Shown here: piece by piece, positions 20,280 through 53,714 of the stretch
How the letters are laid out: each line of letters opens with the position of its first letter
Position numbering within the stretch: the stretch's first letter is position 1
Source: Centroberyx gerrardi
Lineage: Eukaryota > Chordata > Actinopteri > Beryciformes > Berycidae
Length of the DNA: 64,000 nucleotides
Direction: 5' to 3'
Assembly (NCBI RefSeq): GCF_048128805.1
Contig: NC_136012.1
Coordinates: forward strand, 8,068,121 to 8,132,120
Translations under genes and position numbers: made by a program
Notes under the pieces: generated by a model
Seen by the model: the letters and a program-made list of their open reading frames with translations, nothing else
Database searches by the model: none
Told to the model about the DNA's origin: nothing

Positions 20280-23279
20280 TTAAACCCCCTCACCGGTGCC
20301 GTTGGCCTGGTTGATCCCCTCTCCTGCGCTGCTGTTCAGGCCGGAGGAAAACATGCCTCGGTACATGGCCTTCTCCTTCTGCAACTCCCTGCCCAGCTTC
20401 TCCTCAGCCCTCTGCAGGTGCTTCCTCACGTTAGCGTCTGCAACGGGGGAAAAAAAGAAGAATCAAGTTTTTGTGCTCATTTTCTGAAGGAATCTTCATT
20501 TCATTTCTCTCTCTGATCCCACAGGTGTTCAAATATGCAGGAGGCAAGGAGAGAATCTGTAGAATTATGCAAAATGAAAAAGTTATTGCATGTGTGGATA
20601 TGTATTTTATCCAGCATTATTTTGTATCAGAGATAAATGGGAAAATGGGCATGGTGCAAGAACATTTTCTAAACTTTCTTTAAATGTCACATATTTGGTC
20701 TTTGGAAAAATATACAGAAAAGCAACAGGGGACTCATGAAATGCGAGTGCAGTTTGTAATTTGCTCTTTTTCAGCTCAAGTTTGAAGAATGCCAAATATT
20801 TTTAGCTGAAATGAGCTTTCATACAACACAAATATGACATTCAGATTTTTCCCATATTTGGTAAATCAAGAGTTTGCAAACAGTTGTCCTTTTAAGGTAA
20901 TACAACATTTTGCTTCGCATTGATTGGTGAACTACTTTCCAAATGCAAAAGCATGTCAAATGTTTTCTTATAAGCAATTTTACTGTGCTATATGAACTGG
21001 TAACAAATATGAAACGGCAATCAGGAGAATCGGTTACAAACTTGGTTGCAGTAAAAGGAGGAAGTGAATATTTATGAACTATAAGAACCAATGGAGAAAT
21101 GTAGTCATTTGAGACAAATCTCCACCTGAAAATAATTTGTCAAAACATATATTACATTTATACACTGTCCACTGTTTATACACTGAAATTCTGTGCTAGA
21201 GGAACCAGAAATATCTAAATTAATAAATATTTCTCCTACTGATGACATCCGAAGCCTGCTGTGGATGACACACAAGTCCTGGTGTGCCGGGTCCTTTCTT
21301 ACCGTTAGGCTGCCCCCTGCAGGCCTGGGTGAGGTACTGCTTGGCGGTCTGTGCGTCTCCCAGCTCCAGAGTGGCCACTCCTGCCCTGTACAGTGCTTTG
21401 ACATCGCCCGGCCGCCGCTGCAGCACCCGCAGGCTGTACTCCCGCACACGAGCGTAGTCAACACTCTGTCTCTGGAGTAAACAGGCTGAGGCAGAGGGGA
21501 AGAGAGAGAGAATCAGTAAAATAATGTTACATATTCATGTTTACATACCAGCCTATGCTAACAGAAATCCTACACTTGTAAAATTGTATTCAAGATGGTG
21601 TTTCCACTAGATTTTTGTAGCAGTGGAGACAGGGACACTGCAGTGCTGGAACCAGGGTTTGCTCCAGGATCTATCCAAGTATCTGTTTCAGTGTCTGTGG
21701 TCATTTAAAAATGGATGTAGTTTAGATACCTAGATCTTTATTATGACATATGGAATAATTATACTGCAAGTGCCCAACCGCCCTATGTATTTTTTTTTGT
21801 TTTGGGTAAATAATAAATTCAAATGACTGATTTTTCTAACAGACAGAAAAGCCAAACATATGTAGGAGAGAAACCCTGCAACAAGTAGTCACTATCTACC
21901 AGCTAAGTTGTTGTAGCAGTCCACTTGTGTGTTCCTCAGTAACTCCTCCTGTGCGGCTGTGAGAGCAGGCGCCTCAGGTCCGAAGCCTTTCACCGCCGTC
22001 GTCACATCAGAGTCCAGGCCCCGGAGGACCAGCAGAGCGCGGTGATAACGGCCGATGGCTGAGCGGACGTTCTTCTCCCGGTAGAAAGCGTTCCCCTCCA
22101 TTTTCAGACGGACCGCATCTTGGAGCTGGGCGTCCAATTTGGCAGAGGAAGTTTTGGGCTTTATAAGGCCAGAAGAGCTCGGTTCTGCTGCCGCCGCCGC
22201 CCCCATCGTCTCTGGAGTCTCCTCTCCTCCTGCAGCCTCCATGTCTGCCGTGGAACTAGATGGCTGGTGAGATGAGACTGAGAGTAATTTCATGTATTTA
22301 GAGACGCTTGGAGAACACGCATACATACATAGACTACATGGACACATTTTGGGAAAATCAGTTATAGCTGCTCTCACTATTTCAAGTATTTCCACACCTC
22401 TGAGCACAGTGTCTGTGTGGCTGCTGTGGGGCCCAAACTTGGTTGTTTGCTTCTTATCAGCGTTTTAAGTAATTTCATTGGCATTGGATTTTGTTTGTGT
22501 TTGGTTGCTAATATTGATTTTCTTACTGTTTAAAACATAGTTGTTAACGTTACAGAGCATCTAAGTACGATATAACAATCTCTCAAAGAAATAACATGGA
22601 CCTAGGTTACAGCCGCAGTCTGTTAGTTGTTGTGCAGGGAGAGAAACTAAACCAGCCCTGATACGTGAGAGATAACGTCATGCCAACGTCCATCACAAAA
22701 ACTGGCAATTTTTTTTTTCTATAGCTGGTATAACATGATTTAAGACCTTTTACGAATAATTGGGGTCTTCTGGTAAATTCGGCCTAGACACGATTCAACA
22801 AGCAACACTTTATTTCAGTAAAACCTTCTCATCTGCTCGCTACCGCCCACCACGGAGTATCTTGGTGCAAGAACGTAACGTAGAAATAAAAATACATATT
22901 TCAAAAAGTTTTAATTTATGGAAATAAGCGCCGCTTGGTGTATTTAGTGTAAGCCGAATTTAAAAGTAGCCCCCAACGATTCGTATTACCAACAATTTAA
23001 TCTCCCGATAAGCAAGAGTACATTAATTTGTAAGATATTTGAATTGAGTTTCACGTAACGTTCTCTCCATATGAGAACCTAACGCATCGGGGCTACACTT
23101 CACTACACTACAGCAATGAGGGTTACAGCTAACCTAGCTAAGTTACCAAGCTAATTTAACCTCCTCGCACACTAACCCCTTCCTGTTAATTTCATGGTTA
23201 CACAATTAACGTGTGGTACCACATGCGTCATTTAAAATTATGGGAGAGTTGTGATATATCATCTCACCTTGCAGGCCAT
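20280..23279 (-). CDS. ttc9c: Tetratricopeptide repeat protein 9C
   Basis: TTC9C is a small TPR protein; TPR arrays mediate protein contacts and its partners are poorly defined. The coding exons are 23279-23268 (12 nt, M-A-C-K), 22263-21900, 21485-21303 and 20437-20280, giving 238 residues. Diagnostic blocks are KMEGNAFYREKN with IGRYHRALLVLRGLD, QVDCYNNLAACLLQ across the exon 2/3 junction, RVREYSLRVLQRRPGDVKALYRAGVA written across two TPR helices, and a C-terminus containing KAMYRGMFS. The phrases LRGLD, DCYNNLA and the GMF ending fit TTC9C rather than TTC9 or TTC9B. The N-terminal 60 residues are Ala/Ser/Pro-rich and longer than in mammalian TTC9C. The first-exon model rests on a good donor (AAG|GTGAGA) and an acceptor with a polypyrimidine tract that keeps frame; if it is wrong, translation would start at the ATG at 22242. 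The promoter and this exon recur in the second duplication unit. Confidence 0.9.
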
Positions 23280-23345
23280 GGGAAAGACAACCGTCAGACG
23301 GTTACTTCTTGCACTAGACAACCATTCTACTGATAAAAATCTTTA
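22907..23345 (-). promoter_or_regulatory. ttc9c promoter/first-exon region
   Basis: This stretch contains the predicted 12-nt first coding exon and sequence immediately around it. Most of it recurs at 35723-35772 and 39297-39591, split by an insertion. No TATA box is evident. It marks the left part of duplication unit 1. Confidence 0.6.
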
Positions 23346-23574
23346 CATTTCCAGACACTTCCTTGTTTTCTTCTTCAGTGGTCATAACTTCCACAGTTGA
23401 ACTTTATGGCACGTACTGCCACCACACGGCCGAAACAGGAAATGACAGTATAGACATGGTGAAAACTTGGCGCCACAGCCTTTATATCTGGTTATGTTGC
23501 ACAACACAGCACAGTGCCTTTTGCAGCCTGATAAACATGAACTATATTCTATGCAAAAAAGGTGTGATTTACAA

Positions 23575-23580
23575 TTTATT
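23575..23580 (-). terminator. Candidate poly(A) signal of slc5a7-like gene 1
   Basis: AATAAA on the minus strand about 410 nt past the stop codon. The same motif is kept at the matching place in the second copy (41153-41158). Confidence 0.45.
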
Positions 23581-23989
23581 ATTCAAATACAATTTTAAAA
23601 TAATGTTATATATATATGTTTTTAAAAACGTTCAACATCTGATTGGCACCTATGTAGTATACATAACAAAACTTAAGACATTAAAGTCAGTGTAGTCCAG
23701 TAAGTTTGTTTTAGATCCCACTAAAATGCAATGAAACTGATCAGTCGGTCTTGATCTCTTTGGCCTGTGACCAACAAAATTATAACTTGTAATATCCTGA
23801 CGTGCGCTTGAACAGAGTGATGAATTCTGACACCATCCAATGGCCTAGAGGCTGAAAACTGTTCATTATTTTACAAAAAAGTAAGCATTGGTATAAGACT
23901 GAGACATGATAATACAGCTCAATATAAGAAATATGATGTATGCATCCCATAAATCATTCCTCTTTCAGGCCTGTTGATTTGTTTTAACA

Positions 23990-26900
23990 TTACGTATCTA
24001 GCATCAATGCGCTCTCATTCTGGACTTCAGATTTCTCATCCTGCTTGTCCTCTTTGCTGGTGTTGGTACTCGTTAATGTTAGTTGCTGTGGTGGCCGCCG
24101 GGTTTTCACTTTGAATACGTCCCACCTCCCAGGGATCAGCCCGTTGTTGAAGAGCAGTGAAGCCAGCCAGGAGAACGTCAGAGTAGCGAAGATGGTAGAC
24201 AGCATGCAGATGGTCCTGATGGGGGAACGCTGGACGTAAACACCGTCCTCCAGAGTGCACCCTGGGAAGTGGAGGACGGTCGGTAGCCCTAGAAACGGAT
24301 CCCCGCACAACACTCTCAGCGACACCCCGATCAGAAAGCCCATGACGGAGCCGTAGCCGTTGGATATGCTGAAGAAGAGGACGCAGACGAGTTGAGGGAA
24401 CATGATGGTGTAGGTTATGTCTGAGCCCAGGATCCAGAACACCATGATGCTGTTGTCTAGAAAGGTGAGCGCCGTGCCGGCCAAGCCCACCAATACCACC
24501 GTGACTCGGATCACCCACTGGAGCTCCCTGTCTGATGCCTGGAGGGAAGGGAGACACAGGGACAAAAACACCTGGAGGCTTTTCTCTCACCTTCTGATCT
24601 CTCTCAGACACGGTAAATTACCCCTGGACCATCTTACCTTGGTCCTCACGATGTTCTTGTAGATGTTGGTGGAGAAGATGGAAGTGGCCGACAACAGAGC
24701 AGAGTCTGTCGACGACATCGCCGCGGCGGCTACAGCTCCGATACCGATGATGGCGATGTAGTTTGGGGTGAGGTGCTGCAGAGCGATGGGCAGGACCAGA
24801 CCGGCCTCCCCACGCTCGTACGGAGAAGGGGAGCCGTACGAGGTCAAGTTCCAGTCTGAGACCCAAACATACAATCGGGATATCAGGCAAAATAGCAAGT
24901 CCAGGGCCTAGCTTGTAAGCTTAGTGTGTGGACACACTTTCACTATCTAAGGTGGGGAAGAAAGAATGTTTAAAAAATGAGGATGGTTACACTCTATTCT
25001 GTTCTGTTCTATTCTACTGTAATAAATCCATTGTACCTGTTGATGCTGCGACTGCTCCGATCAACACTGAAGGGATTCCGAAGATGAAGATAACAGCAGC
25101 TGCAGTGAAGCAGGTGATCCTGGCTGTGGCTGAAGACGAGGCTGACAGGGTCCGCTGGTGGAAGTCCTGATAGCCCAGGCTACCAAAAGACTCAGTAAAA
25201 AACAGTGGAAACCACTGTTACTACATTTGCTTGCGGTGAGCCATATTGTAATCTTTCCAAATTAAATAAAATATCTGGATTGGATCGAAGGGCCCTCAAA
25301 ACAACCATACTAGCAACTCCAAAAGTCTCAAGGGTTGCATGTAGTGTCCTAAATTAACTTTTTGTCTCACCTGTCAAGAACTGATAAACTAAAAACAAAA
25401 TTACTTGCCAAGAATAATTTTTATCAGTCAAACTAATTAATCTTTAAATTTTTTCATAGAAATGTGTCACCCTACCCATTTTCAATGCTATTTTATGTAT
25501 AGAATGTTAACTGAAAAAAACATGTGCATGTGTGCAGGCCTATTCCTATATGTGGCAATGTCTATAAATCTCTGTGTGAGAATGAATACTAGGCATATGT
25601 AATGAAGTGAAAATAACTTGCTGGCAGATAATCTAACTGCAGTAAAGTGAAAAGTAGATCTCATATCAAAAAGACTTGCTACTCCTAGATTATCTGCATT
25701 GCTCATGAACGTTTGCATGTGTCCCGACCTGAAAACTGAAGCATGTAAGCCTTACCAGCAGTAAGAAATTATCAATCCACCTCCAGGCTCTTTCTGCTTC
25801 CAATGTACCGACCCAGGGGGCCTGGAAGGTAAAGTTGAATGCAGTCTTGGTGATGTCAGCTGATGAGGGGTTCATCAGGATGAAAGGGACACACAGCCAC
25901 TGCATGAAACACAAGGAACCACTGACATAAACATTTGGAGGGGAAATGCACTTATATACTCACACACTTAGATATACTCTGCTACATGATGAGTTTCAGA
26001 CAAGTTTTTGGTAAAAACACATTCTTCCCTTGTTGAGTGTGACTTGTTACCAAACGCCCAATCGTGCAGTTTTAGCATGCGACCGTCATATTTGGTGAAG
26101 ACATCAGAATAACTCACCATACTGATGAATATGAGAATTAGTTGTATGATGTCTGTGTAGGCTACAGAGTAGAGGCCTCCCAGCAGTGTATACACAATGG
26201 CTACTGCAGCGGAGATCCAGATGCAAACAGTATAGGGCAAATCCAGAATCACACTCATGGTCGCACCTACAAAGGTAATTCACACACATGCACACTACTT
26301 CGTAATAATTGCTTATTCAGTCAATATATCATTTTATTTACCGCAACACATTAGCAGAATTAAATGAAAGTGTGATAGATCTGTTAAACAGATTCTGGTC
26401 AAAAGAATTTTTAGATTATTCCTCTTCTATACTGTCTGGATTGTTTGGTTACATTGTAACCGTGGCTCTCTGAGTGAAGAGACTATCACTCCACAGTTAC
26501 ATATTCCATATGTGTGGGGACTGACCCCACTAGGGCAGTTGATGCAGATAGCTCTTTAAGACACACCACTACGTGGCCCATGCACGGGTATATTAAGTCC
26601 AGGTGTGCATGTACTCACTGGTTAACATTGATTGGAATGTGTTCCCGAGCAGCCTTGACCTGGAGAGATAGTCTCTTCATTCAGAGAGCCAAGTTTACAA
26701 TGTAATCGAATGTTCTCTATTATATCGACACTATCTCTGCACACAGTTACATATTCCATATGTACGAGGACTCTGTAAGACACACCGCAAGGAGAACAAG
26801 GAGACAGAGCAGATGTAGCCCCTCAAGTACTCCCCAAATTTTATCGGTATTTATCTGGTATTCGAATGAGACGTCCCCGCCACCAGAGTGCTCTAAACAA

Positions 26901-29900
26901 ATGCGAGTGTGCATCAAAACAAAAAACCAGGTGCCAGGTGCAGCCTAAAGCATGGCCAACAACGCAAGATGCTAAGGTTGGGTGTGAAAGGGTAGAGGCC
27001 GCTCACATGGCCTACTAGACCAACTGACAAGGATACAAGATACCTCCCTGGCCGGGCCGAGAGGGGCCACCTGGCACAGGGGAACATTGAATATGTCCTA
27101 TTAGCAACTTGAGACGCAAGAATGGAGTTGGAGTTGAGAGACGACGTCTCATATGCAGATATCTGTTTATAGAGATTAGCTGAAATGTCGTCTGGACCTA
27201 AAACACCTACAAAAAGTATCAATGTTTGTGTATTGTGTGGAGAAACGTTCGACTCAAGTTGCTAATCGGACTGTAAACAATGACCGGCGCACGGAAGTCT
27301 TGGCCCGGATGTCCGCTGGCTACACCGGAAACCCCGAAATATTGGCCGTCGCCCCCAGAGTCTAATCATCGTCAGACCGATAGACGATGGGTTCTGAGAT
27401 TGCCCTGTGTTTGACTCAGAAGGTCCCAGCGAACTGGAAGTTCCCATGGCCTCCCATCCAAGAGGGGCACAATCCCTGAGAACCACGTCATCTGTGGCCA
27501 ATTTGGAGCCATCAGGATCAGCCTCACCTCCTCCCAAATTCTCTGCAGCAGGGTCGGAAGAAGACTGAATGGGGGAAAGGCATACAACAGTCCCTGAGGC
27601 CATTGGTGTGCCATGGCATCGATGCCTGGGGGGGTTCGTCTCTCCCTATGGAGAAGTACAGTGGGCGGTGTGCAGTCTCTCTGGACGCAAACAGATCGGC
27701 CACTGCCCTGCCGAAGCGACGCCAGATTTTCTTGACCACCCCTGGCACATGCATGGCTCTGAGTAGCAAAAATTGTGTGCATGTCCACAACCTATGTGCC
27801 ACCTTGCAAAGGTGTGGGGAGCCCAAGCCCCCTTGCCTGTTGACATAAGCTGCTGCCACCGTGCTGTCTGCTCTTACAATCATGTGACTGCCCTGCAGGC
27901 TCTGTAAAAAAGTACTGAAGGGTGAATGGCCCTCAGCTCTAGAACATTGATATGCTGGCCCTTCCAGGAGACGCTCCAGTCCCCACTGGTGTCCTTGCCG
28001 TCGTGGACTGCGTCCCATCCTTCCAGGGATACATCCGTAGAGACCACCTGGTGACACAGCACTGGACCGAGCATACCTCTCTTTGAAATGTTGGCTGGGT
28101 TCTTCCACCACCTGAGGGCCACACAAAGCCTCCTGGTGACCAACACCCTGGCCTGCAGGTGTCTCTGTAGGCAAAGCCCCATGCACAAGAGACACGTCTG
28201 AACTGGACGCATGTGCAGGAGAGCCAATGGCACCACCTGTGCTGATGCCGCCATAAGGCCCAAGAGGTGTAGACAAAGCCTCCAAGTGACCCTGGTTCCT
28301 AGCCGGAAATGAGAGAGGCAGACTTTGAGGGATTCCTGCCTCTCCTGTGTCAATGTCACCAATGCAGCCCTGGCATCCAGCCACATGCCTAGAAACTGGG
28401 TGGTCTGTGCGGGCTGCAGCCTGCTCTTCTCTGTGTAGATGCATAGCCCCGGACTCTGAATGTGTGCCAACTACACCAACACATGGTGATGACACTGCTC
28501 CTCTGTCTGAGCACATATCAACCATTCGTCAAGGTAGTTCAGGATCCTGAGACCCTGCTGCTGCAGAGGCCCCAGGACTGCATCCATACACCTGGGTGAA
28601 GGTGTGGGGGGCTAGTGAGATGCCGAAAGAGAGAATACAGAATTTGAACGTTCTGTCGTCGAAGGCAAACCAAAATCTCCTGTGTCCTTTCCAGATTGGT
28701 GTTTTGAAGTAGGCATCTTTGAGGTTGACAGTTGCAAACCAGTTGCCTACAAGGACAGCCTGCCTCAACCTCTGTGCGGTTAACATTTTGCATTTCAAAG
28801 GCCTGAGGAACTTGTTTAGTCCCTCTGAGATCTAAAATTGGCCTCCAGTGAGTTCCATCCCGCTTCAGGATAAGGAAATATCGGGAATAAAACTCCGCCT
28901 GCTGATTTTCCCGCCCCACCTCCCTGATGCCTTCTTTGCCAGGAGAGTGGAGATCTCAGAGTGCAAAGCCTCTCTGTGCTGAAGATCTGCCATGAGGATG
29001 CAGCCAACTTCGTAACAGCAGGGGTGCACATAAACTGTAACAATGACCCTTTGGTCATTGTTGAACTAACCCAGGGGTCTGCCCCCAGGGCTTCCCATGC
29101 CGCACAAAACCCCAGCGGGCAGGGGCAGGCTGGGGGTGATGTCATGTCAGGACTGAGTCAAGGACTGGTGTGGCCCCTGGCCACCGCTGCCCCGTCTACC
29201 CCAATTGATACATGATGATGCGTCTAATTGGGCACTCAGATCCCCCTGACTCCAGGATGCTGTGTTTGCTTAGGCTGATGTGGTGGAGGCTGGCGCCATT
29301 CTTGGCTCCGCCTCAAAGCACCTGACACCTCCTGAGTACAGCAGTGAGCTTCCTGGGCCTGCTGAAACATCCTAGTAGCATCAGCGCCAAACAGCTGGCA
29401 GACAGCTCTACAAAGCTCTACAGATGACTTCAGTAGACACGCCCGGTCCTCTGGCTGCAGCATGGACTATGACAGCCACAGGCCTTGCCGGCTGCCTCTG
29501 TCTGCTCCCTCATTAGCTGAGGGAGAAGCGAGGAGACCTATTGCATCTCCATTAGCAGTTCTGAATTACACTCCACCTTCAGCTGCTGAGTCAGATAACG
29601 TTGGTAAAGAGCCAATATGGCCCCTGTGTTAGCCAGTTGAGGCTGGACCGCCACAGTGCAATGCATCTTAGTTAACAAAACATCCATCATTTAGCAGTTC
29701 TTGCTTGGGCAACTACTCTTCCCAAGGATTGACTTAGATGGAGACACCAAGGCCGCCAAAGCCAGGTCCAAGGTAGGTAATGGCCCACAGCCTATCCTCT
29801 CCCGATTGTGTACCGATGTCAAGCGTCTACAGAGCCCAGACCAGCGACCAGCACCTGATGGTGTCTGAAACTGCTTTCGGACCACCTCCTCAAAGTCAGA

Positions 29901-32759: not shown

Positions 32760-34113
32760 GTTGGCAGAGTCTGACTGATTGCCTCACTAGATGAAATGTA
32801 GATTTGATCAACACATGCAAAGGAAATCAGGGCTGTCGGGGATTTAGATGATAAAAAATTAACTCAGAGGCTGTTAGTTCCAGACCAGGGCAAAGGGCAA
32901 TAACTGAGCATTTTGTCAAAAAATATTATTTCTGTATATTGCCTCTATGCTAAATTATAAATTCTAGGGGGTAAAAAAAATGCAATAATTAGGTACAAAA
33001 ACGGGAGGATAACAGAGGCAAAGACCAATAACTGTGGAGTTTCTACCTTTGCTTTGTAATAGTTACAATTAGCCTATGCTGAGTTCAAGTGCTGTAGGAA
33101 ATATCGTAGCCTAATTACAAGAGTGCACATCAATTACCCAACAAACTGGGAAAGTGGGAATTTTCCATGAAACCTGATGTGCCAAAATGTGATTGATCCC
33201 ATTCATGGTAAAAGTGCTTTATTATGCAACAACTTTTGGTTAATAAATATATTAAGCATTGGGTAGGCTATGCCGTTTTCTCCACTTCATTCTGCCACTG
33301 CAGACACAAAGTAGCTCTGTGCTCTCTCTCAGGACTAGGAGCAGCATGGTGCTCACTAGAGGTGAAAATATTAACTATTGCTAACAATCATCAATTTAGA
33401 AAACTTTAGATGAGCTGATAAGTTATTATTAGCTTGTTACCCAGGCTAGCCTGTTAGCTTGTGATCATCAACTTAGACCCATATATTGTAAGGTAGGAAA
33501 ATGTCTTCACTGTCAGGTTTGTGAAGAATAAATGCAGCCTTAATACTTAAAATACTCATGTGTTTGATGCTAATGCAGCCGCTTGTATCACAAGGCACCT
33601 TTTTACTGATGCAAAGGCAAACGCAGTAGGTCTAACTACTTTTTGTGTTTTAAAGGTCAAAGGTCATGATTATATCAGCAAAAATTATACCATTCAATGC
33701 AGCTAAGCAATATACTATCCACTTCTGTACCAACAATACTTACAGTGGGATAGTATATACTTGCATTGCTTGTGTTCTTACTGCTGTTTGTCTTTGTATG
33801 GCGGTGATGTGTTATCCATTTATTCCACACATGCATTAGGCTAGCCTAGACTGCTATGCCACAAAATAATTATAAGATGATAGAATTTCACAAAATAATG
33901 TTCGATTTCATTCTTTTTTTTTTCGGCATATAATTTTGATGATCAAAGAATTTAAGCTTTTTCTATAGTTACACTTATTGTAAATCGCCCTGGATTATTG
34001 TAGTTAGTGTTGATTATCTCTGTCTAGTAGATGAGTACTTGACAGATATTTTGTTTGTCTTGATGACTGTATGTGTTCACATAATTAACACATACACAAT
34101 GTTTATGCTGTAG

Positions 34114-34144
<31 letters not shown>

Positions 34145-40913: not shown

Positions 40914-41152
40914 TCTTTACATTTCCAGGCACTTCCTTGTTTTCTTCTTCAGTGGTCATAACTTCAACAGTTGAACTTTATGGCACGTACTGCCACCACA
41001 CGGCCGAAACAGGAAATGACAGTATAGACATGGTGAAAACTTGGCGCCATAGCCTTTATATCTGGTTATGTTGCACAACACAGCACAGTGCCTTTTGCAG
41101 TGTTGATAAACATGAGCTATATTCTATGCAAAAAAGGTGTGATTCACAATTT

Positions 41153-41158
41153 TTTATT
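41153..41158 (-). terminator. Candidate poly(A) signal of slc5a7-like gene 2
   Basis: AATAAA on the minus strand about 380 nt past the stop, at the position equivalent to 23575-23580 of copy 1. Confidence 0.45.
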
Positions 41159-41535
41159 CAAGTACAATAAAAAAAAAAAAAAAAGTATATATATGTTTTT
41201 AAAGATGTTCAACATCTGATGATTGGCACCTGTGTAGTATACATAACAAAACTAAAGACATTAAAGTCACTGTAGGCTTCCAGTAAGTTTGTTTTAGATC
41301 CCACTAAAATTTAATGAAACTGATCAGTGGGTCTTGACCTCTTTGGCCTGTGACCAACAAAATTATAACTTGTAATATCCTGATGTGTGCTTGAACAGAG
41401 TGATGAATTGATTATTTTATAAAAAAGTAAGCATTGGTATAAGACTGAGACATGATAATACAGCTCAATATAAGAAATATGATGTATGCATCCCATAAAT
41501 CATTCCTCTTTCAGGCCTGTTGATTTGTTTTAACA

Positions 41536-44500
41536 TTACGTATCTAGCATCAATGCGCTCTCATTCTGGACTTCAGATTTCTCATCCTGCTTGTCCTCTT
41601 TGCTGGTGTTGGTACTCGTTAATGTTAGTTGCTGTGGTGGCCGCTGGGTTTTCACTTTGAATACGTCCCACCTCCCAGGGATCAGCCCGTTGTTGAAGAG
41701 CAGTGAAGCCAGCCAGGAGAACGTCAGAGTAGCGAAGATGGTAGACAGCATGCAGATGGTCCTGATGGGGGAGTGCTGGACGTAAACACCGTCCTCCAGA
41801 GTGCACCCTGGGAAGTGGAGGACGGTCGGTAGCCCTAGAAACGGATCCCCGCACAACACTCTCAGCGACACCCCGATCAGAAAGCCCATGACGGAGCCGT
41901 AGCCGTTGGAGATGCTGAAGAAGAGGACGCAGACGAGTTGAGGGAACATGATGGTGTAGGTTATGTCTGAGCCCAGGATCCAGAACACCATGATGCTGTT
42001 GTCTAGGAAGGTGAGCGCCGTGCCGGCCAAGCCCACCAATACCACCGTGACTCGGATCACCCACTGGAGCTCCCTGTCTGATGCCTGGAGGGAAGGGAGA
42101 CACAGGGACAAAAACACCTGGAGGCTTTTCTCTCACCTTCTGATCTCTCTCAGACACGGTAAATTACCCCTGGACCATCTTACCTTGGTCCTCACGATGT
42201 TCTTGTAGATGTTGGTGGAGAAGATGGAAGTGGCCGACAACAGAGCAGAGTCTGTCGACGACATCGCCGCGGCGGCTACAGCTCCGATACCGATGATGGC
42301 GATGTAGTTTGGGGTGAGGTGCTGCAGAGCGATGGGCAGGACCAGACCGGCCTCCCCACGCTCGTACGGAGAAGGGGAGCCGTACGAGGTCAAGTTCCAG
42401 TCTGAGACCCAAACATACAACTGGGACATCAGGCAAAATAGCAAGTCCAGGGCCTAGCGTGTAAGCTTAGTGTGTGGACACACTTTCACTATCTAAGGTG
42501 GGGAAGAAAGAATGTTTAAAAAATGAGGATGGTTACACTATTCTGTTCTGTTCTGTTCTACTGTAATAAATCCATTGTACCTGTTGATGCTGCGACTGCT
42601 CCGATCAACACTGAAGGGATTCCGAAGATGAAGATGACAGCAGCTGCAGTGAAGCAGGTGATCCTGGCTGTGGCTGAAGACGAGGCTGACAGGGTCCGCT
42701 GGTGGAAGTCCTGATAGCCCAGGTTACCAAAAGCCTCATAAAAAAAAACAGTGGAAACCACTGTTACTACATTTGCTTTGAGCCATATTATTCACTTTCC
42801 AAATTAAAAGAAAGGATTGGACTGAAGGAGTGGCCCCCAAAACATCCATCCTCACAACTCCAAAAGTCCTTGCAACTCAAAAAGCATGTACGTTTTTGAA
42901 GGGTTGCATGTAGTGTCTGAAATTAACTTTTTGGCTCACCTGTCAAGAACTGATAAACGAAAAAGCAATTATTTGCCAAGAATAATTTTTACCAGACAAA
43001 ATAATTAATTAACATGTTTTCATAGAAATGTGTCATCCTACCCATTGTCAATGCTATTTTATGTATAGAATGTTAACTGAAATTTTTTTTGCATGTGTGC
43101 AGGCCTATTCCTATATGTGGCAATGTCTATAAATCTCTGTGTGAGAATGAATACTAGGTATATGTAATGAAGTGAAAATAACTTGCTGGCAGATAATCTA
43201 ACTGCAGTAAAGTGAAAAGTAGATCTCATATCAAAAAGACTTGCTACTCCTAGATTATCTGCAGTGCTCATGGACGTTTGCATGTGTCCCGACCTGAAAA
43301 CTGAAGCATGTAAGCCTTACCAGCAGTAAGAAATTATCAATCCACCTCCAGGCTCTTTCTGCTTCCAATGTACCGACCCAGGGGGCCTGGAAGGTAAAGT
43401 TGAATGCAGTCTTGGTGATGTCAGCTGATGAGGGGTTCATCAGGATGAAAGGGACACACAGCCACTGCATGAAACACAAGGAACCACTGACATAAACATT
43501 TGGGGGGGAAATGCACTTGATATACTCTGCTACATGATGAGTTTTGGTAAAAAGACATTCTTCCCTTGCTGAGTGTGAAACCTGCTTCTGTGACTTGTTA
43601 CCAAACGCCCAATCGTGCAATTTTAGCATGAGACCGTCATATTTGGTGAAGACATCAGAATAACTCACCATACTGATGAATATGAGAATTAGTTGTATGA
43701 TGTCTGTGTAGGCTACAGAGTAGAGGCCTCCCAGCAGTGTATACACAATGGCTACTGCAGCGGAGATCCAGATGCAAACAGTGTAGGGCAAATCCAGAAT
43801 CACACTCATGGTCGCACCTACAAAGGTAATTCAGAAACAAGTCAGCATGTTTCCTATGAAAAGAAAAATGATCAGAAAACCAGCAAGATGGCTGACTTGA
43901 GGTGACAGTTGAGTGCTTTTCCCTAAGGATAACTGTTTGACAGTGGTTGGTTCGTGGCAGAGCACCCAGTCAAAGTTGGGAGAGGTATATTTGTTTAATA
44001 CCATGTATGCTGAAAAATCTGTATACGAATATAAATGAGTACAATCACTGAATATCTGTCATCTCCTTTTGTATAGGCTATATCTGTGTTTTGGACGCAT
44101 GCGGTCTAGAGTTTTGTGTATTTGACTCTGTCGCCATGAAAACAAAGTACTGTCTGTAAGCAGCACACTTCAGCCTGCTTCAACACTTCACTGGCTGATA
44201 TGCTCAGAATTCTTCCTGCAATTCTGCACAGACGGAAAGACATTCACTGCTGCCTCTTAAAATCACAAATGGCGGTAATGAATGCAGCACACATAGGATG
44301 ATAAGACACAGCTTGGGCTTCCTAGAAGTAGGACTATCATACTACAAAAGGGAATTCATAATCAGCGGCGCCTTGTGCCAGTTTTTTAGGCTAATTTTCT
44401 CTCGCCCTCTGGCTACTTTCCTGGTTGGATTGAACAAACATTGAAACAGGATTCCTTTTTATGTAAAACAACTAAAAGCAAAGAGACAAGTTATGTAGAC

Positions 44501-44847
44501 AGAAACGCTTACAAGTGCACTCATTTATGATTCAAATAATTTATTTATTAATCAATAACTAATAGTGTTGTAGCCAATTTTGATGTGTGCTATATGTTGT
44601 GTGTGTGGTAAGTTGTGTAAATGTTGTTGTTGCTACTTCACCTGCGCACTAGAGGGCATAGGCAGGTAATCACAGTAGTCACATAGCCTACAGGTAGTCA
44701 CAGGTGAACAGCTGCAGGGAGTTAGGAACTGAGGAAGCCACACAGTTTTTCAACCGTGTGTGGGCGCCTGTGCTTTTTTGTTTTGTTTCATATCGAGCTT
44801 GTTTTTATATCACTCATTCAGTGCACCCGGCCTTTGTAGGTGACTTT

Positions 44848-44906
<59 letters not shown>

Positions 44907-47900
44907 GTGTCAAACGCATATTCCATGGCAGACCTCATTTTTTGCACCACCACGCGTTGAAAATGCCTTCAAATTCCCTCAAGTGGCCTTTTTTGTTGTT
45001 CGATTGCCACTATAAATAGTATACACTGCATGGAGAATTAAACAGTCCATGAATATGCATTACAAGTGAGAAGGCCAGTAGCTCGCTGTAAAGCTGAATG
45101 ACAGGCGGAGATTTCTTTTTCTATTGATGAGACAGGGTTTATCCATGAAGAGTATTTTTCTGCTAAATGCATGCAACCCTTCAATAGCAAACATACAGTC
45201 TTAAGTCTTTTACCAATATGAAAACAATTTACCAAAAAACGTGCTCAACCCTCTGTTATTTATGTGGGTGCTGAATCCTCAAAAAATTTGTAACGAAATA
45301 CTCCAGGACAGCACTCCAATTAATTAATTTATATTTTTTGCCACTCAGACATTTTGGGCAAGACGCCCTTCTTCAGTGCGCTTTTTAGGCAAACAAACTG
45401 AATCGGTCACTCGCAGGTGACTCTTATTGGTAATCAGGCTGACGCAGCAGCTTCCAAAAAAATCACAAATTAGTTATATCATTTTTTAGATGTACTAACA
45501 ACAACACTCAGAGGACATAAGGTGTAATCGTAACAACACTCAGGGACATGAAACAACCTCTAGGCTATTCCAACAATAAGCAAATATTTATGTAGTCCTA
45601 TACGTTGCAAAATAGCCTAATTAATTAATTTTCTTCATCCATGCATAGCCTAAACATGATCTAGGTTAGGCATACCTACATGTTTTAACATAACAGAAAA
45701 ATATCACAAAAAAAACTCACAAAAAACAAGATAAAGACAACTCTTCATTGAGTCCCCTTGGCTCCAGTGTATCAAGAAAATGTATCCAAAAACATTCCTT
45801 TTCAAGAAGGATTCTTTTCCTTTTAATATAGGTTACATGGGCATTTTAATAGATATACAACAAATTTAGTATTGCATGTTATTCTGCCTCTAACATTTAC
45901 AGCAGTTCCAGTCTTAGGATGGGGAAAGTGATTACCTCTAATCAGACCATGACACTGAACACAATTAAAACAGGGAAAGTTCCCACTTGGGATACTAGAC
46001 AAGAAGTGAGAAGACCTCTTTGGTGAATCAGATCTCACCAGGTAGTTACGCAGATTAGACTGCCTTTTATAGAAAAATCTTGTTGTGTTCAATCCGCAAT
46101 CATGATGTAAAATCATCGGTTGCTAGGCGTTTCAACAGCCACCACCACACAACAGGAGATCTCAGATACATGGGCATTGAGACTGTTAAAACTCCACCTA
46201 GAGGTGGGGATCGGGAAAGAATCCTTCTTCAAAAGGAATGTTTTTGGATACATTTTCTTGATACACTGGAGCCAAGGGGACTCAATGAAGAGTTGTCTTT
46301 ATCTTGTTTTTTGTGAGTTTTTTTTGTGATATTTTTCTGTTATGTTAAAACATGTAGGTATGCCTAACCTAGATCATGTTTAGGCTATGCATGGATGAAG
46401 AAAATTAATTAATTAGGCTATTTTGCAATGTATAGGACTACATAAATATTTGCTTATTATTGGAATAGCCTAGAGGTTGTTTCATGTCCCTGAGTATTGT
46501 TAGGATTACACCTTATGTCCTCTGAGTGTTGTTGTTAGTACATCTAAAAAATGATATAACTAATTTGTGATTTTTTTGGAAGCTGCTGCGTCAGCCTGAT
46601 TACCAATAAGAGTCACCTGCGATTTACCAGTATGAGACATGACAGAACCGATCAATATGGTGTAATTTATGTGTAATTTCATGTGAGATGCAAAATAACT
46701 TAATAACTGTATCTTTTTGCACATTTACATTTTATATTTACACCATGGCATTATTGCTACAGTGCATGGTCAAAGAAGAGAGGCAAATTCAGGTCAGTCA
46801 GTCAGGGATGAGACACGTCACTCCTCAAACTTCATGGTCACTTTCTACAAATCATATCTGTTTAGAAGGAAGTACAAGTTCTACTATTGTGAAACTTTAC
46901 CTTTAAAACTTTATCTTTGATGTCAATGTCACTTACCTAAGCCGATCAGAGTTCCAGTCACCCAGATGATATCAGATATAAGCGGCGCCACAGACAGGAC
47001 TCCACTCAGGACCTTCCCATACTTGATCTGGAACGGGTCCATCATGGTCACATATTTTTTGTCTCGCATTGGTTTGGCAAAGAAAAGTCCACCTTTATAA
47101 TTCAACCACAGAAAGCAAAATAGATTTGCATTGGTGTGGCTGTCACTACGACACAACATCACAGACAAATATTTGGTGCAGAAACCTCATATCTCCAAAT
47201 TTTTCCAAACCCCCCCCCCCCCCCCCCCCCCCCCGAGTAATACGTCACTGTGATCACGCCCAGAATATGACCTTATTGACTGGCAGGATGGCAGGCAATT
47301 AGTGTAAAATGTATCACTCCTGTCAAATTGTTTGGCTAATATGATTTGCAGGATGGGTCTATTTGAATTCCAATATCTCCAATTCTGTATAGTAATTCTC
47401 ATCAAAGAAGTCAGCATGGGCCTTACATTTTCTCTTCATAATGCATTAGTGAATTACCTCAGCAGGTGGATGAGGCCGTGCAGCTAGGTGGAGCAACAGA
47501 GCCACAGGTGAGATCTCAAACAGGCTATATGGCATTTTCCTGCACTGGGCCATGTTTCTGTTAGTGCAGTAAAAACTTTGGTTTTCCAGATCTGAGGCAT
47601 CTGATCCACAGACTTGTTTTGAATTTCCTTGCACTGCATGCTTTTAAAGGCATTCCAACAACCATTTAGACTGTGCAGGACATTGTGGAATGCATGATAT
47701 GTTTCATATTTTGATCGATGTTTGTCCTTCAGATCAGAGATTTGGTGCAGTTTTGACCAATAATTCCCCTCACTCTCTCTGATTCCTGCATACTTTGCTC
47801 ATATAAATTTGTATTTTTTTCAAATTCATTTCAGATTCAATCTTGCTGATGAAGTGAGAGAAAGCAGAGTTGCATTTAGGCTGCTACTAAGGATGTCAGT

Positions 47901-48269
47901 GTGATTTGCTGTCCAGTTGAAATGAAACCTACACCATTGCTGATGATTGACTTTTCATTGCACAGTATTCAGTTATTGACTTCTTGTCTCATCCTATGAA
48001 CTGATGTTTGTCCGTATAGTATCTCCCGTACTCGTCAATAAAGTGCTAGTCTTAATAGCTTCTCAGAATTGATAACTATTTAGATTCTAACTACTTATCA
48101 AACTGGTATTGTCATTAAAAGCTCGTCTTACCCACAGTGAAAGACAGGGCTGCTGTTACTGGCATGACAGCCCAGGTCAGTCCCATACTAGGAGTGTAAA
48201 CTGCTTCTGTCAGACCAAGGATGAAGCCCCCTCCGACAAATGTAGCTGTAGGAAGCACAATGCGCGCAT

Positions 48270-48348
<79 letters not shown>

Positions 48349-49696
48349 TTAATGCAAAACTCAGTTCTCCCTCTGAAGTTACATCTGTGAGATAAATTTT
48401 CTGCAGCATATACAAACCACCAATGGTCAAGTTGTAGCTGCTTACGGCCGAAATACATGGGACACGGACGCGGCGCGACACGTCTGCGGCAGAATGCCCG
48501 CAGCTGAGCGCGTCCAGTATAATCAACTGAAGCTGCTACACTGACCACGGAAGCCGCGCGCACCCGCGCGGGCATCGCGTGGCTCATCTCTAGTTTTGCG
48601 CGTCTGGTCTATTTTTTCCCCTCTACGCGTGGCTACGCGGCCCTCAAACAGGTAAAAACTCCATAGAACTGTGTAAAAAACGAGTACAATCTGTTTAAAA
48701 ATGATTAAAATAAATACCTCATTGTACCAGAGGCAATGTGACGCAGCAGAGCAACCTTGTGGGTGTTTTTACATTGCACATTAAAATAAATCAATCAAAT
48801 CAATGTGTATCCATGATCCTGTAGTTAAAACGATCTAGTTAATTAATTCAGTACCAGTTAATATAGCCTACACTTCCAAACCCTGCATAACCAACTGCAT
48901 TATCACTTGGCAAAACTCAACTTGATATCTCCTCAAACCACGGCTGGCATGCAACCACACCTACAAAGACGAAGTCTGTGTAGCAGGTAAAGACCCTGCT
49001 CCGTCCGATTTCGGCCGTAAGCTGACTGGAGATAACCAAAACATTGTAAATATATTATAGCAGAATACAGAACTCTTCCATTTCCCTGAGTGATTCAAAG
49101 TTGTTTCCTACATCGTTGTATTTGCTCACACTGATGTGTATCCCTCATGAAAAAGACCTAATATTAATCCAATTCTACACAGACATCACAGCAAAACCAC
49201 AGGCCTACACTAAGTCCCTATATGAAGATTATATACCATAGGAGATAAAAATGCCATAAAGTATGTCCAATAAGGTCACTATACACTATAGGTTCCTATA
49301 CAAATACGATTCTTTTGGTTAAGGGCATTTCATTGTTCTGTGGACCCAGGTAGGGTAGCTAATGGTGATATTTCCACACTAATACAAATCAAATATATCC
49401 AACAGGTGTAGGCTACTGTATGTGCAGCCATAATAAATCATTTCAGTCACAACAGTCGCCCTACTGTAGATTGCACTGGTCCAATCCGACACCATGCAGC
49501 TTCTATACTCACCTGTCATGGTGAAGATTCCCACCACCAAGCTGATCCCACGGTTCCCCAGCAGAGTCATCTCGGTCCGGTCTCCCTGGCTCCTCTCCTC
49601 CACCCGCCTGGACTGGACCGAGGCCCAGATGCCGGTGCCCAGCACCAGCAGGTAGAAGAGCACCATCACCACCAGTCCTGGGATGTTCAGGCTCAT
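41536..49696 (-). CDS. slc5a7-like: High-affinity choline transporter 1-like (SLC5A7-like), copy 2
   Basis: This is the tandem paralogue of the gene at 23990-32759, with the same eight exons and phases: 49696-49513, 48245-48132, 47092-46937, 43817-43669, 43464-43321, 42734-42581, 42401-42184 and 42084-41536 (555 residues, frame intact). Exons 1 and 7 are identical in nucleotides to copy 1, and exon 8 differs at only two residues (R/H in VQHSPIRT and R/Q in KTQRPP). Exons 2 and 3 differ more: '[14 protein letters not shown]' against '[14 protein letters not shown]', and '[13 protein letters not shown]' against '[13 protein letters not shown]'. These changes lie in early membrane spans and could alter substrate handling; that is inference. 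Intron 3 holds a Penelope pair and a TA microsatellite, intron 2 a 25-base C run, and intron 1 a CA microsatellite and an inverted-repeat element not found in copy 1. Confidence 0.9.
44850..44901. repeat. (TA)n microsatellite
   Basis: About 50 bp of TA in intron 3 of slc5a7-like copy 2, not present at the matching place in copy 1. Confidence 0.95.
45413..46085 (-). mobile_element. Penelope-like retroelement 3' part, minus strand, endonuclease core deleted
   Basis: The minus-strand frame reads from '[11 protein letters not shown]' through '[17 protein letters not shown]', the stretch that leads into the GIY-YIG endonuclease of Penelope/Neptune elements. It then jumps after CNLYY to the end of the domain (about 45820, '[25 protein letters not shown]' in pieces), so the catalytic core is missing. 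Sequence from about 45413 to 45819 is the 3' end and 3' UTR. It is joined head-to-head at about 46085 to a plus-strand piece. Confidence 0.8.
46086..46621 (+). mobile_element. Penelope-like retroelement 3' part, plus strand, 5'-truncated in the endonuclease
   Basis: The plus-strand frame (about 46086-46316) reads '[20 protein letters not shown]...' through '[12 protein letters not shown]', the C-terminal half of the GIY-YIG endonuclease, followed by about 300 bp of 3' UTR. Bases 46214-46621 are the near-perfect reverse complement of 45413-45819. The two pieces together contain the two ends of the endonuclease on opposite strands, and neither is complete. Confidence 0.8.
47210..47234. repeat. 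C homopolymer, 25 bases
   Basis: The C run lies in intron 2 of slc5a7-like copy 2; copy 1 has no such run at the matching place. Confidence 0.95.
48271..48346. repeat. (CA)n microsatellite
   Basis: A pure CA run of about 76 bp just upstream, on the transcribed strand, of exon 2 of copy 2. Copy 1 has only a short ACACACAC there (about 32071-32082). Confidence 0.95.
48442..49020. mobile_element. Inverted-repeat DNA element specific to copy 2
   Basis: The ends are TTACGGCCGAAAT and ATTTCGGCCGTAA, perfect inverted repeats of 13 bp, around a 579-bp interior whose left part is CpG-rich. Copy 1 reads straight across the site (around 32139-32150), so this is an insertion after the duplication. There is no transposase frame. 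A CTG on both sides may be a 3-bp target duplication. Confidence 0.75.
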
Positions 49697-49720
49697 GTTG
49701 GCAGAGTCTGACTGACTGCC

Positions 49721-51055
49721 TCACTGGCTCACTGGAGGAAACACACGATTAGCTACGTTGGAACAAGAAGAACCAGTTTCCACTGAAAAAAAATAACCAC
49801 TTACTAGGTTTCCACTCTCCATTTTATCAATACCTGCAAGGGAAATCAGGGCTTATGTTTTTTTATTTTTATTTTTATTTTTTTTAGCGTGAATCTATCT
49901 TCGAACAATTGTTGACGCTACAGAAGTGAGTGATGAAAAACTACGAGGCTGTTATATCAAGGCCAGGACTACGGAAAAGGATTAGGGCCATATTCTGAGT
50001 TAAAGTCAGAATTCTGAATTTAAAATCAGAACTGAAATACATTTTTAAAATATGGCCCTAATCCTCTTCCATACAGGTGTAGCACTCGTGTCACTGTATC
50101 ACAGGCAACTATAATAAACTTTATTTATATAGTAACTATAAGCCACTGGACCAGTTCTAGGTTCGAAGGAGTGATTGAGTTAAATAAAATAGTAGACCAG
50201 AGACCAGAGACCAGAGACTCACATTTTGATTGGATCGCGCCCCTTGTTACGTATGAAAGTCATTTTTAATCCCACAACCACAAAAAACGGTTCCTAAATT
50301 CATTGTCAGAGTTTAGTGACGTTTTCACACTCAAAGATGACAAAAATAGCCATTTTAATGAGTGATTGAATATCATCACTGTCAGGTGTTTGTATTGCCA
50401 AAATGTCAACTTTTCAGGTTCTAAGAAAAACAGCCATGGTTTAACTAGATAACAACGCATTTTGACATTATCCGATGGGTTTTAAAAGGGTCTCATAAGT
50501 GCAGGAGGTCGGGGAATTTTCTCAACCCATAGAGAAGCATGGAACCCTTCGACTGAAGTGAAAATATTAAAATCACCAAAATTTGGGTTACAAGGTTTTT
50601 ATATGACAACAGTGATATTTTCGCCCCTCCTGTTATGTTAGCAAATCTGTTGCATCTCTTTATCTCTTGACCCGGAATGGCTGAACCAGCTCAGCAGTCA
50701 CAATACATATTTTATTCCCCAATAGTAATTTACCTTATTTAACCCAACTCGTCACCCATCGGTTTTTTGTATTTCATAGTCCATACAGACTGTATTTCCT
50801 TTATGATACATCACTCATTTTCATTAGAAAACACACATTTTGCAGCATCTTATTGATTATATTGACTGTAATAGATGTAGGATGCATATTTCGTATTTGA
50901 CTATGTCTAGTATGTGTGCACTTTACAGATATTTTGTCTTGATATAATTGACTTGACATAATCGAGGCATACACAACATTTATGCTACAGAGGTGTGTGT
51001 CTGTGTGCGTGTGTGTATACAACCTGAACCATGTGTTCACAGGAGACAATATTTG

Positions 51056-51087
<32 letters not shown>

Positions 51088-52384
51088 TTGACCCATCTGG
51101 ACAATGATTCACATGAGAAAGTTTGCATATCCAAATTTCTTGACCAATGGGTCAAATTTGACCTCTAGTATAATCTTTGGACCCACATGGTGTAGAGACT
51201 TTATAAAATTATTTATGTGGACAATGTTTCACTTTTTGTAATGGGGTGGCCACTCAAAATTTCATGCAGAAAAAATAAAATATATGGGGTTTTCACTGCT
51301 GTTTAAGTCAGAAACTGACTGAAACAAACTAACTTTTGTTAATGTCTCATTAAATTATTGCATCAGAGCTACGAGTGTGCGGCTACTTTCACCATTTTTA
51401 TGCTTGTTTTCGCTGGCCAGCACCTCATCACTACAGGTGTGCGTTTCACCTACTTTAAGTCAGAAACTGATCAATTTTGACCCTGACATAATAGGAGGGT
51501 TAAGACACAAAATGCTGTGCTCACATTCAAAACTTTAAATCACATGCTCAAATGTCAGAATGCAACCACCTCAGATACAATACAATGTTCAAATGCTTCT
51601 TACCAGATATGCAGATAGCTCAGTCAATGCAACATGTGTTTTCAGTCATGCCTCATTACTTCGGTTGTGTTACATTTCTTAATATTATGACTATTCCATG
51701 ATGAGCCCGCAGTACTTGTCCTAGTGATAACCTATCTGTCACAAACACATCTTCATAGTGTCAGCTGTGTCAGTGCCAGCCTTAATCAACACTGCCCTTC
51801 ACGGTCTCCTCTGCTGTGTCAGTTGCACATCGGCTCCTTGCTCTGTAGTTGTATGATTTACTCAAACACCCCGTCATTCACAAACACTAATCCTAGTGCA
51901 CATATGTACACGTAGCCACAAATACACACACGCACCCAAACATACACACATTACATCATCAGCTATCTTCCATCACTCAGCCCTCAGACACTGTTTCCAA
52001 GCTATATTTGTTCTTGTCCTATTACTACATGAGCACAAAACGGTATGCTAGCTTATCTTTGTTTAATATATAAGTCAGTGTTACAACTCCTCTGTGTGCA
52101 TGTATGTACCTTTCTGTGAAAACGTCATCTTCCATTAAAACTTTGGTCAACTTTCATGCTGCTTCCTGTTCCTCATCCTGACCACATTTGTACAGTTACA
52201 TTCTCATTACCATTTTTCATCTTTTAGTGATCCCACCTTCTCCCTAACTTAGCGAGCAACTTCCTAATACTGTGATAAAAATGGGTCATATAATGGATCC
52301 TCAGAGAAGAGAATTAGTTTGACTCGTGGGCTCAATGAACCTTCAACACAATGTCACAACAGGTGTGTTTTTTATGCTGTAAAG
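49721..52384. other. Upstream region of slc5a7-like copy 2
   Basis: No coding exon is recognised. It contains a dispersed repeat (about 50430-50660), a GT microsatellite (about 51059-51086) and segments that align with the region upstream of copy 1 (50900-51250 and 52050-52250). Confidence 0.55.
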
Positions 52385-53220
52385 CTAGTCCTACCCACAG
52401 TGAAGTACAGGGCTTTTGTTAATGGCATGTGTAGAAAAGGCTCTGGCAGAGCACCCGTTAACGAGCCAATAAATCGCCATAGCAACCCCAGCCCAGGCAG
52501 GCTCTGAAAATCCCCCGTGCCACGCAGCAGACAGCCTCTTCAGATGGTCACTTCAAGGACTTAAAACTGAGTAAACTTTACCTGTTGTGTGCATAGATGA
52601 CCAAATGTAAGTAGAATGTGTCAGTTAACAGTTATGGAAATTGGTGTAAGGTTAAATTGATGTTAAGGAGATAATTATATTGAGTTGGACCCACATTGCC
52701 TGTTTGTTGCTTGGTGTTTGCTTGCGCTAGTCTGAGCTATGGTTAGAGAGCCTTGTTAAGTTTAATAACTAAGCTATGTGGAACTTGTTAGCCTTCATGT
52801 TGCACACCCAGTATTTTGATGAGAGATGTATCCATGTTGTGTGGACTTTTCCCTCACCGCTACCTACTGAGAGTTACTTTATGTTTTTCATGCTGATTAC
52901 CTTATTACTATTTGGATAGTAATTCTCGTGCATTCCTTGTTTAATTCCATTAGTAATGATAATTACTCTCCTGTTTTAGACCACACACAAACCCACCATC
53001 ACATCCCTGTATTGTGGCATGCCGATGGATAGGATGGAGAGACTATAAGCAATTGTTGTGCCTATGTACCTGATGCCTTAAACCTTCAGTAAAGTTCTAT
53101 GCATCGAAGTCCAGTCTCCGTGTCCTGACCCGACACCCAATATTGGTGAACACTCCTGAGCCAGCTAAATAGTTCAGTACAGCATGACAGCCCAGGTCAG
53201 ACTGCCTCTATCACACCAAC
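52385..53220 (-). pseudogene. Decayed exon 2 of a further slc5a7-like gene (unit 2), split by an LTR
   Basis: The two halves (52385-52429 and 53182-53220) match the exon 2 pattern (CACAGTGAAGTACAGGGC and ATGACAGCCCAGGTCAG) and the homologous remnant at 34795-34890. The gap is a 752-bp LTR insertion. The frame is broken even without it. Confidence 0.75.
52430..53181. mobile_element. Solo LTR, 752 bp, with 5-bp target-site duplication
   Basis: The insert begins TGTAGAAAAGG and ends TTCAGTACA, the TG...CA form of LTRs. It is flanked on both sides by GCATG (52425-52429 and 53182-53186). The empty site is kept in the intact exon 2 copies (GGCATGACAGCCC). There is no internal region, so it is a solo LTR left by recombination. 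The family was not identified. Confidence 0.8.
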
Positions 53221-53459
53221 ATTAGTCATGTTGAAAACCTCTTGTTCATTGCTCTTTGGGTAATTTGAGATATTCTGTTTTGATGAGATTGTTTTTTTGT
53301 TTGTTGACATGATTAGATAATAACTACTTTAGTATTGAATTTTGCATTAACAGTTTTGCACATTGAAATTCAAATTACAGTTTTTTGATATCAAGTTGAT
53401 ATAGACCCAAATAACAGTATGAAATGGAGTAGCTAATATAAAGATTTTTGTTACCATGT

Positions 53460-53515
53460 TGATGCTCATGTCTGTTCGGTCTCTCTGGCTCCTCTTCTCT
53501 TCCAGGAACCCACAG
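53460..53515 (-). pseudogene. Fragment of exon 1 of a further slc5a7-like gene
   Basis: The segment with TGTTCGGTCTCTCTGGCTCC resembles exon 1 at 32636-32665 and 49573-49605 (CGGTCCGGTCTCCCTGGCTCC), in the same orientation. Only about 40-55 bp remain. Together with the exon 2 remnant it gives the correct order for a decayed minus-strand gene. Confidence 0.55.
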
Positions 53516-53714
53516 GTAGAAATCTTTGCCTGGCAGACTGCCAGAGAAGATAAATATATGGAAGACATGCTGGACAGTAATGTTATTTATGACAGTGTGA
53601 ATGTGACTTATACTGTATGCTCCATTTGTTTTCTAGATTGCCCAGGTATTTTGACCCGCCCTTACCTATCCACTTTATTTAAACTTTGCTGTTCACACAA
53701 ACACATGGACTAGG

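Follow-up and report, generated by a model that had tools for sequence, protein, structure and literature searches.

A Tandem Pair of slc5a7-Like Genes with an Altered Choline Cage and Mosaic Divergence in the Fish Centroberyx gerrardi

Two slc5a7-Like Genes next to ttc9c

The window analyzed here is a stretch of 64,000 nt from Centroberyx gerrardi (assembly GCF_048128805.1, NC_136012.1:8,068,121–8,132,120, forward strand). It sits on a 30-Mb contig, designated C16, in a genome of 778,876,752 bases and 278 contigs, is composed of A, C, G, and T only, and has the gene content of fish DNA. On its minus strand it carries, in this order, an slc5a7-like gene (gene B), an orphan copy of the start of ttc9c, a second slc5a7-like gene (gene A), and ttc9c. 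SLC5A7, or CHT1, is best known as a single choline transporter of neurons.

Gene A (23990–32759) and gene B (41536–49696) each encode 555 residues. Their eight exons all have usable splice sites and join into an open frame. Those of gene A are located at 32759–32576, 32060–31947, 30511–30356, 26266–26118, 25899–25756, 25190–25037, 24855–24638, and 24538–23990, and those of gene B at 49696–49513, 48245–48132, 47092–46937, 43817–43669, 43464–43321, 42734–42581, 42401–42184, and 42084–41536; the stop codons end at 23990 and 41536, respectively. Exons 1, 5, and 7 are identical between the two genes. In searches of the PDB, both proteins match CHT1 best (human CHT1, 8j74, E 5e-154 for gene A and 1.1e-154 for gene B), followed by the bacterial CHT, with sugar transporters (SGLT) far behind. 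The alignment of gene A with the human protein (8j74, 9bfi) is nearly gapless, with 45% identity (243 of 541 aligned residues). The bacterial sfCHT, which we take to be PDB entry 9rws, belongs to the same family and matches gene A with an E value of 1.6e-86. A Pfam SSF domain was detected in gene A, the copy that was scanned (109 bits vs. a cut-off of 22.8; E 3e-31). The Na2 residues A60, V63, A343, S346, and S347 are kept in both copies (5/5), as are the exit-path residues R47, Q259, R260, and S263 (4/4); both sets are shared with human CHT1. Genes A and B seem to encode intact sodium:solute symporters belonging to the SLC5A7 clade.

Two Colinear Units Derived from a Tandem Duplication

Each gene lies in one of two units arranged head to tail. 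Unit 1 (22900–34895, minus strand) consists of the edge of ttc9c intron 1, the proposed ttc9c exon 1, gene A, and a relic of exon 2 from an older slc5a7-like copy. Unit 2 (35716–53240, minus strand) is colinear with it and consists of the orphan copy of ttc9c exon 1, gene B, and a relic exon 2 split in two. Comparison of the window with itself revealed matches between 22900–22954 and 35716–35770 (89% identity), 23057–23346 and 39297–39591 (87%), 23335–26288 and 40909–43839 (92%), 30282–30779 and 46863–47379 (84%), 31119–31758 and 47383–48022 (99.2%), 31828–32075 and 48021–48259 (86%), and 32149–32788 and 49108–49725 (95%). Further shorter matches reach 34838 and 52429, and a last scrap pairs 34834–34893 with 53182–53231. 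The matches, which include noncoding DNA, are ordered on one diagonal. These colinear self-matches and the two open genes confirm the tandem segmental duplication with slc5a7-like genes proposed in a first-pass annotation of the window, together with the order described there, as all eight transporter exons are present in the same order in each unit. The diagonal expected in a self dot-plot is likewise present, but it is broken by insertions private to one unit and is not continuous.

On the ttc9c side, the duplication ends near 22,900 and 35,716. Its far side lies at about 34,895 and 53,240, and not at about 53.5 kb (53,520) as initially proposed: the sequence at 53466–53499 (minus strand) is a relic exon 1 scrap of the older copy, matching functional exon 1 (85% over 34 bases, E 1.7e-5), and the flank of unit 1 contains nothing that corresponds to it. 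The relic exon 2 of unit 1 (34806–34881, minus strand), directly upstream of gene A, is 78% identical over 87 columns to gene B exon 2 (E 3e-13). Its counterpart in unit 2 (52395–53231, minus strand) is split by about 750 bases into 52395–52429 and 53182–53231. Since both units carry this relic, the duplicated segment would already have held the remains of an earlier copy, and the locus seems to have a history of gain and loss.

The proposed first coding piece of ttc9c, encoding MACK (23279–23268, minus strand), reads ATGGCCTGCAAG followed by the donor GTGAGA and joins the next coding exon (21900–22263, minus strand) in frame; we propose it from this frame and donor. Further exons of the same strand are at 21485–21303 and, for the last one, at about 20441–20280. 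Among the TPR matches of the joined pieces, the best is just under the Pfam cut-off and six weaker ones are well under it, and the name ttc9c is thus partly our assumption. As first annotated, only unit 1 runs on into the body of this gene: the rest of ttc9c is absent from unit 2, which places the breakpoint on the ttc9c intron 1 side. The annotation also had both units share the first ttc9c exon. A copy is indeed present in unit 2 (39513–39524, minus strand), but it reads AAG followed by TTGAGA and has lost the splice donor by a change of GT to TT. This orphan start has the same orientation as gene A and is situated about 6.8 kb upstream of it.

A Changed Choline Cage in the Pair and in a Large Gene Family

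Here and below, published results are taken from excerpts of the papers cited. The residues surrounding choline in human CHT1 are W62, Y67, Y91, W141, W254, and W406 (PMC11589582). Both window copies read F, F, A, W, Y, W at these positions. Two of the six aromatic residues, W141 and W406, are thus kept, and the pair differs from the human protein by W62F, Y67F, Y91A, and W254Y. On the hemicholinium side, three of the seven listed residues (S243, Y403, and Y407) are likewise altered. The three bacterial relatives differ from the pair in keeping all six cage residues, save for Y91F in one of them (L003); the cage described for sfCHT is W99, Y126, W176, W298, and W445 (PMC13220886). In human CHT1, uptake was abolished when alanine replaced W62, Y91, W141, W254, or W406. 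Phenylalanine at W62, W141, or W406 left about half of Vmax, and W62F raised the Km for choline from 12 to 402 μM (PMC13220886). Judged from these residues, high-affinity choline transport by the window pair is unlikely. As the cage changes are common to both copies, they would have preceded the duplication or spread by conversion.

A protein search of the genome itself yielded 86 matches; genes were counted by their last-exon match, and the family count is a lower bound. We identified at least 20 slc5a7-type genes: two on C16, six on C15, four on C3, two each on C2 and C21, and one each on C4, C24, C1, and C10. At least 18 of them, on seven contigs and many in tandem sets, are noncanonical. 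The two canonical genes (C1 and C10) belong to the same family as the window pair and differ from it by a full cage: all eight exons were found, all six cage residues are kept, and both group with human CHT1 at full support in a tree of last exons. Exons 2 and 6 of these two genes (loci L058 and L060) give identical peptides over their aligned parts. The last exons of all 20 genes are open over the aligned part, with 171–223 residues to the first stop (last exons only), and we therefore rejected damage as a reading of the stop codons inside some last-exon matches.

Position by position, W254 is lost in all 11 of the 18 noncanonical genes that are readable there (Y in seven, F in three, T in one). 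W62 is readable in ten of the 18, with W in eight and F only in the window pair. Ten are also readable at Y67 (F in eight, Y in two) and at Y91 (Y in five, another residue in five), a stray exon 2 piece being left out of both counts. W141 is kept in the nine readable genes and W406 in all 18. Eight of the 18 could be read at all six positions: the C4 gene has one change, the C24 gene and the four C3 genes (C3a–d) two each, and the window pair four. The stray exon 2-like piece (L025:3472–3570, corresponding to C15:27943042–27943140) follows the last exon of gene C15c on its downstream side and is truncated where the locus ends; it is perhaps a further copy or a relic.

Last-exon peptides are 94–99% alike within the C16, C21, C3b–d, and C2 sets and 89–98% within C15d–f. 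C15c and the C2 pair are 85–86% alike, and other comparisons between sets give 57–79% (C3a, C4, and C24 excluded). The peptides of C3a, C4, and C24 are 38–59% alike to all others of the 18. This pattern points to repeated local duplication or homogenization.

The Two Units Form a Mosaic of Divergence

Mismatches were counted in the colinear BLAST alignments, excluding one off-diagonal match and all columns lying 2 bases or less from a gap. The noncoding DNA of the two units differs at 210 of 4,068 columns, and the mismatches are unevenly spread. The stretches taken as unconverted (the ttc9c start, the surroundings of exons 2 and 3, and the upstream sequence) differ at 120 of 1,432 columns, or 8.4%. 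Compared with this set, divergence is reduced in a block of intron 2 (5/640, 0.8%; Fisher P = 1e-14), in intron 1 (9/387, 2.3%; P = 1e-5), in introns 4–7 (46/971, 4.7%; P = 5e-4), and downstream of exon 8 (27/586, 4.6%; P = 0.002); mismatches beside exon 1 (1/29) were excluded from this regional comparison. A scan independent of predefined regions gave a minimum of 4 mismatches per 600 noncoding columns, compared with a lowest value of 10 in 5,000 permutations.

The intron 2 block (31119–31758 in unit 1 and 47383–48022 in unit 2) is 99.2% identical between the units vs. 88–91% in the adjoining noncoding columns, and we propose it as a conversion tract. It has 41 matches in the genome, two of which are the units themselves (99–100%). 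The others are partial, with 67–83% identity over about 120–320 bases, plus one 32-base scrap at 94%. A young transposon was rejected on this evidence. RNA constraint was also rejected, as no Rfam match was found in the window and the predicted fold is no better than that of shuffled sequences. Because the block holds an old repeat only 67–83% alike elsewhere, constraint or a young insertion is a poor explanation for its 99.2% identity. The coding sequence shows the same contrast between regions: synonymous changes affect 8 of 69 sites in exons 2–3 vs. 5 of 348 elsewhere, and nonsynonymous changes 11 of 201 vs. 4 of 1,046.

Stretches of raised identity, noncoding DNA included, thus lie within an older divergence, and gene conversion is very likely the cause of this mosaic. 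The duplication is not recent, because the unconverted noncoding DNA differs by 8.4%; it is older than the identical exons suggest. Of the two options left by the first-pass annotation, a recent event or conversion, the second is supported by the 99.2% intron block with its old repeat, and the first is not supported, given the noncoding divergence.

Differences between the Two Proteins Cluster in Pocket Exons

Genes A and B differ at 15 residues: seven in exon 2, four in exon 3, two at the start of exon 6, and two in exon 8. Exons 2 and 3 (30356–32060 in gene A, minus strand) therefore account for 11 of the 15. For ten of the differing residues, the nearest cage position is at most seven residues away. 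This zone covers 14% of the protein, and none of 20,000 random placements reached ten. In exon 2, the synonymous and nonsynonymous rates are 0.067 and 0.090, respectively.

Two comparisons bear on which copy has changed. At informative coding bases, the relic exon 2 of unit 1 agrees with unit 2 at seven of eight and that of unit 2 at six of seven. The other slc5a7-like genes agree with unit 2 at 12 of the 15 residues and with unit 1 at three (4–16 genes per site); without the stray exon 2 piece, a hand count gives ten for unit 2, three for unit 1, and two undecided. Unit 1 looks to be mostly the derived copy. That the two genes differ in function is a tentative suggestion at this stage.

Unit-Specific Insertions and Neighboring Features

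Several insertions are private to one unit. Intron 3 of gene A contains a degenerate retroelement (roughly 26400–30200, minus strand) that we presume to be DIRS-like from a motif in its frames; three pieces scanned against Pfam gave no match. In unit 2, the ttc9c-side sequence is interrupted by a Pao-type retroelement fragment (35771–39296, plus strand) with a Peptidase_A17 match (E 1.5e-26) and an rve match under its cut-off. An insertion at 39592–40908 (plus strand) has an A tail and a target-site duplication of about 12 bases at its junctions; we take it to be LINE-like, and it has no Pfam match. Intron 3 of gene B alone contains inverted arms of 416 bases, 98% identical in the self-comparison and about 390 bases apart (45405–46628), probably a recent fold-back element. 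A degenerate CTA/CTG trinucleotide array (35303–35570) is found at the junction of the two units.

Elsewhere in the window, an open frame of 866 residues matching Pfam Dapper (15815–18415, plus strand) is probably a dact gene close to ttc9c, and a frame matching Pfam Atg8 (4053–4544, minus strand) is probably an LC3-type gene.

Proposed History and Alternative Explanations

We propose that a CHT1-related gene would have been doubled by a tandem duplication whose ends lay in ttc9c intron 1 and within what was left of an earlier slc5a7-like copy. Ectopic gene conversion would then have homogenized exon 1 together with intron 1, part of intron 2, and, to a lesser degree, the end containing exons 4–8. 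Exons 2–3 and the first part of exon 6 would have been free to diverge, chiefly through changes in unit 1. The pair is part of a group of at least 18 noncanonical genes with a changed cage, with one to four of the six residues altered in the eight genes fully read. We consider this reading as a whole, from the duplication and the conversion mosaic to a CHT1-related pair with a changed choline cage that carries choline weakly or another solute, to be probable.

False tandem duplication is a recognized assembly fault, and two divergent haplotypes of one locus could have been placed side by side. The analysis covered the assembled sequence, and the identity of exons 1, 5, and 7 would fit such an artifact. 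It is made highly improbable by the 8.4% divergence outside the homogenized parts, by the unit-specific retroelement insertions, one of which has a target-site duplication, by the lack of any N in the window, and by the fact that unit 2 lacks the remainder of ttc9c. Conversion could be dispensed with if purifying selection had kept the similar stretches alike after a simple duplication of uniform age. Exons 4–8 do encode conserved helices, and their synonymous change (5/301) is lower than the change in the introns between them (46/971, P = 0.017), which selection on exons could partly produce. Yet the most similar stretch of all is the intron block with its old dispersed repeat, and exons 2 and 3 were not spared even though they, too, encode part of the transporter core; we regard an account by selection only as very unlikely. 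As for the orphan ttc9c start, its position and strand would allow it to drive gene A now, an idea rendered extremely unlikely by its changed donor and by the retroelement insertions flanking it on both sides.

With respect to the substrate, we lean toward a changed substrate or affinity, the pair carrying choline weakly, or another solute, and still being sodium-driven. Alternatively, the changed cage may tolerate choline and the extra copies provide dosage in other tissues. This fits the conservation of W141 and W406 and of the residues of the sodium site and exit path, as well as the approximately half of Vmax retained with phenylalanine at W62, W141, or W406 in human CHT1 (PMC13220886). 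On the other side are four simultaneous cage changes, the presence of Y91A among them when alanine at Y91 alone abolished human uptake (PMC13220886), and two canonical full-cage genes in the same genome. We thus judge a retained choline transporter to be unlikely.

Several observations weigh against the history that we favor. The regions compared for conversion were picked after the profile was seen. The crowding of differences near the cage may follow mostly from the escape of exons 2–3 from conversion, as within these exons it is not significant (8 of 11, P = 0.096), and the rates in exon 2 fit relaxed constraint as well as mild positive selection. Polarization by the unit 1 relic alone (7/8) has a binomial P of 0.07, two of the 12 residues siding with unit 2 rest on the stray piece downstream of C15c, and paralogues within an array resemble each other too closely to count as independent. 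Finally, only eight of the 18 noncanonical genes were read at all six cage positions, and the C4 gene, which lost W254 only, groups weakly with the canonical genes in the one-exon tree.

Implications for the SLC5A7 Family in Fish

The duplication is ordinary in kind; the interest lies in the changed choline cage of a large noncanonical slc5a7 set and in a pair whose differences are concentrated in the pocket exons. The loss of most of the cage, the genome-wide family, and the decayed older copy within both units go beyond the first-pass annotation. The stickleback has several SLC5A7 co-orthologues (PMC9309457) and the zebrafish slc5a7a and slc5a7b (PMC5515482), and the multiplication of this family in fish is therefore already known. 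The stickleback case is alike in being a published multiplication in a teleost; it differs in that the excerpted passages contain no analysis of the cage, tandem arrays, or conversion (PMC9309457). A literature search limited to open-licence papers found no title or abstract start describing this array or the cage changes.

Expression data come from several fishes. SLC5A7 is among the gill genes induced during smolting in salmon (PMC7141700), is listed with organic osmolyte genes after seawater transfer in pupfish (PMC8438076), and changes in salmon skin and head kidney (PMC13142024). In a table on stingray kidney, a CHT1-like transcript is low, and its level does not clearly differ between fresh water and seawater (PMC9396271). 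A salmon quantitative PCR primer (PMC7141700), used as an orthology test, has five mismatches to both last exons, tied with a chance site in the window, and is worthless alone. From the salmon gill and pupfish responses, a role in gill osmolyte handling is a lead; the genes of these studies may be other paralogues than those described here.

It is possible, though we hold it with less than even confidence, that in fish the neuronal choline transporter gave rise to a family of carriers, at least 18 genes here, that use sodium to move other solutes, with conversion keeping tandem copies similar everywhere but at the substrate pocket. A genome with two canonical and at least 18 other genes provides natural variants of a solved pocket and could mean that fish slc5a7-like genes are wrongly labeled as choline transporters. 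A pair alike outside its pocket exons and different inside them offers a ready test of conversion being resisted where function diverged.

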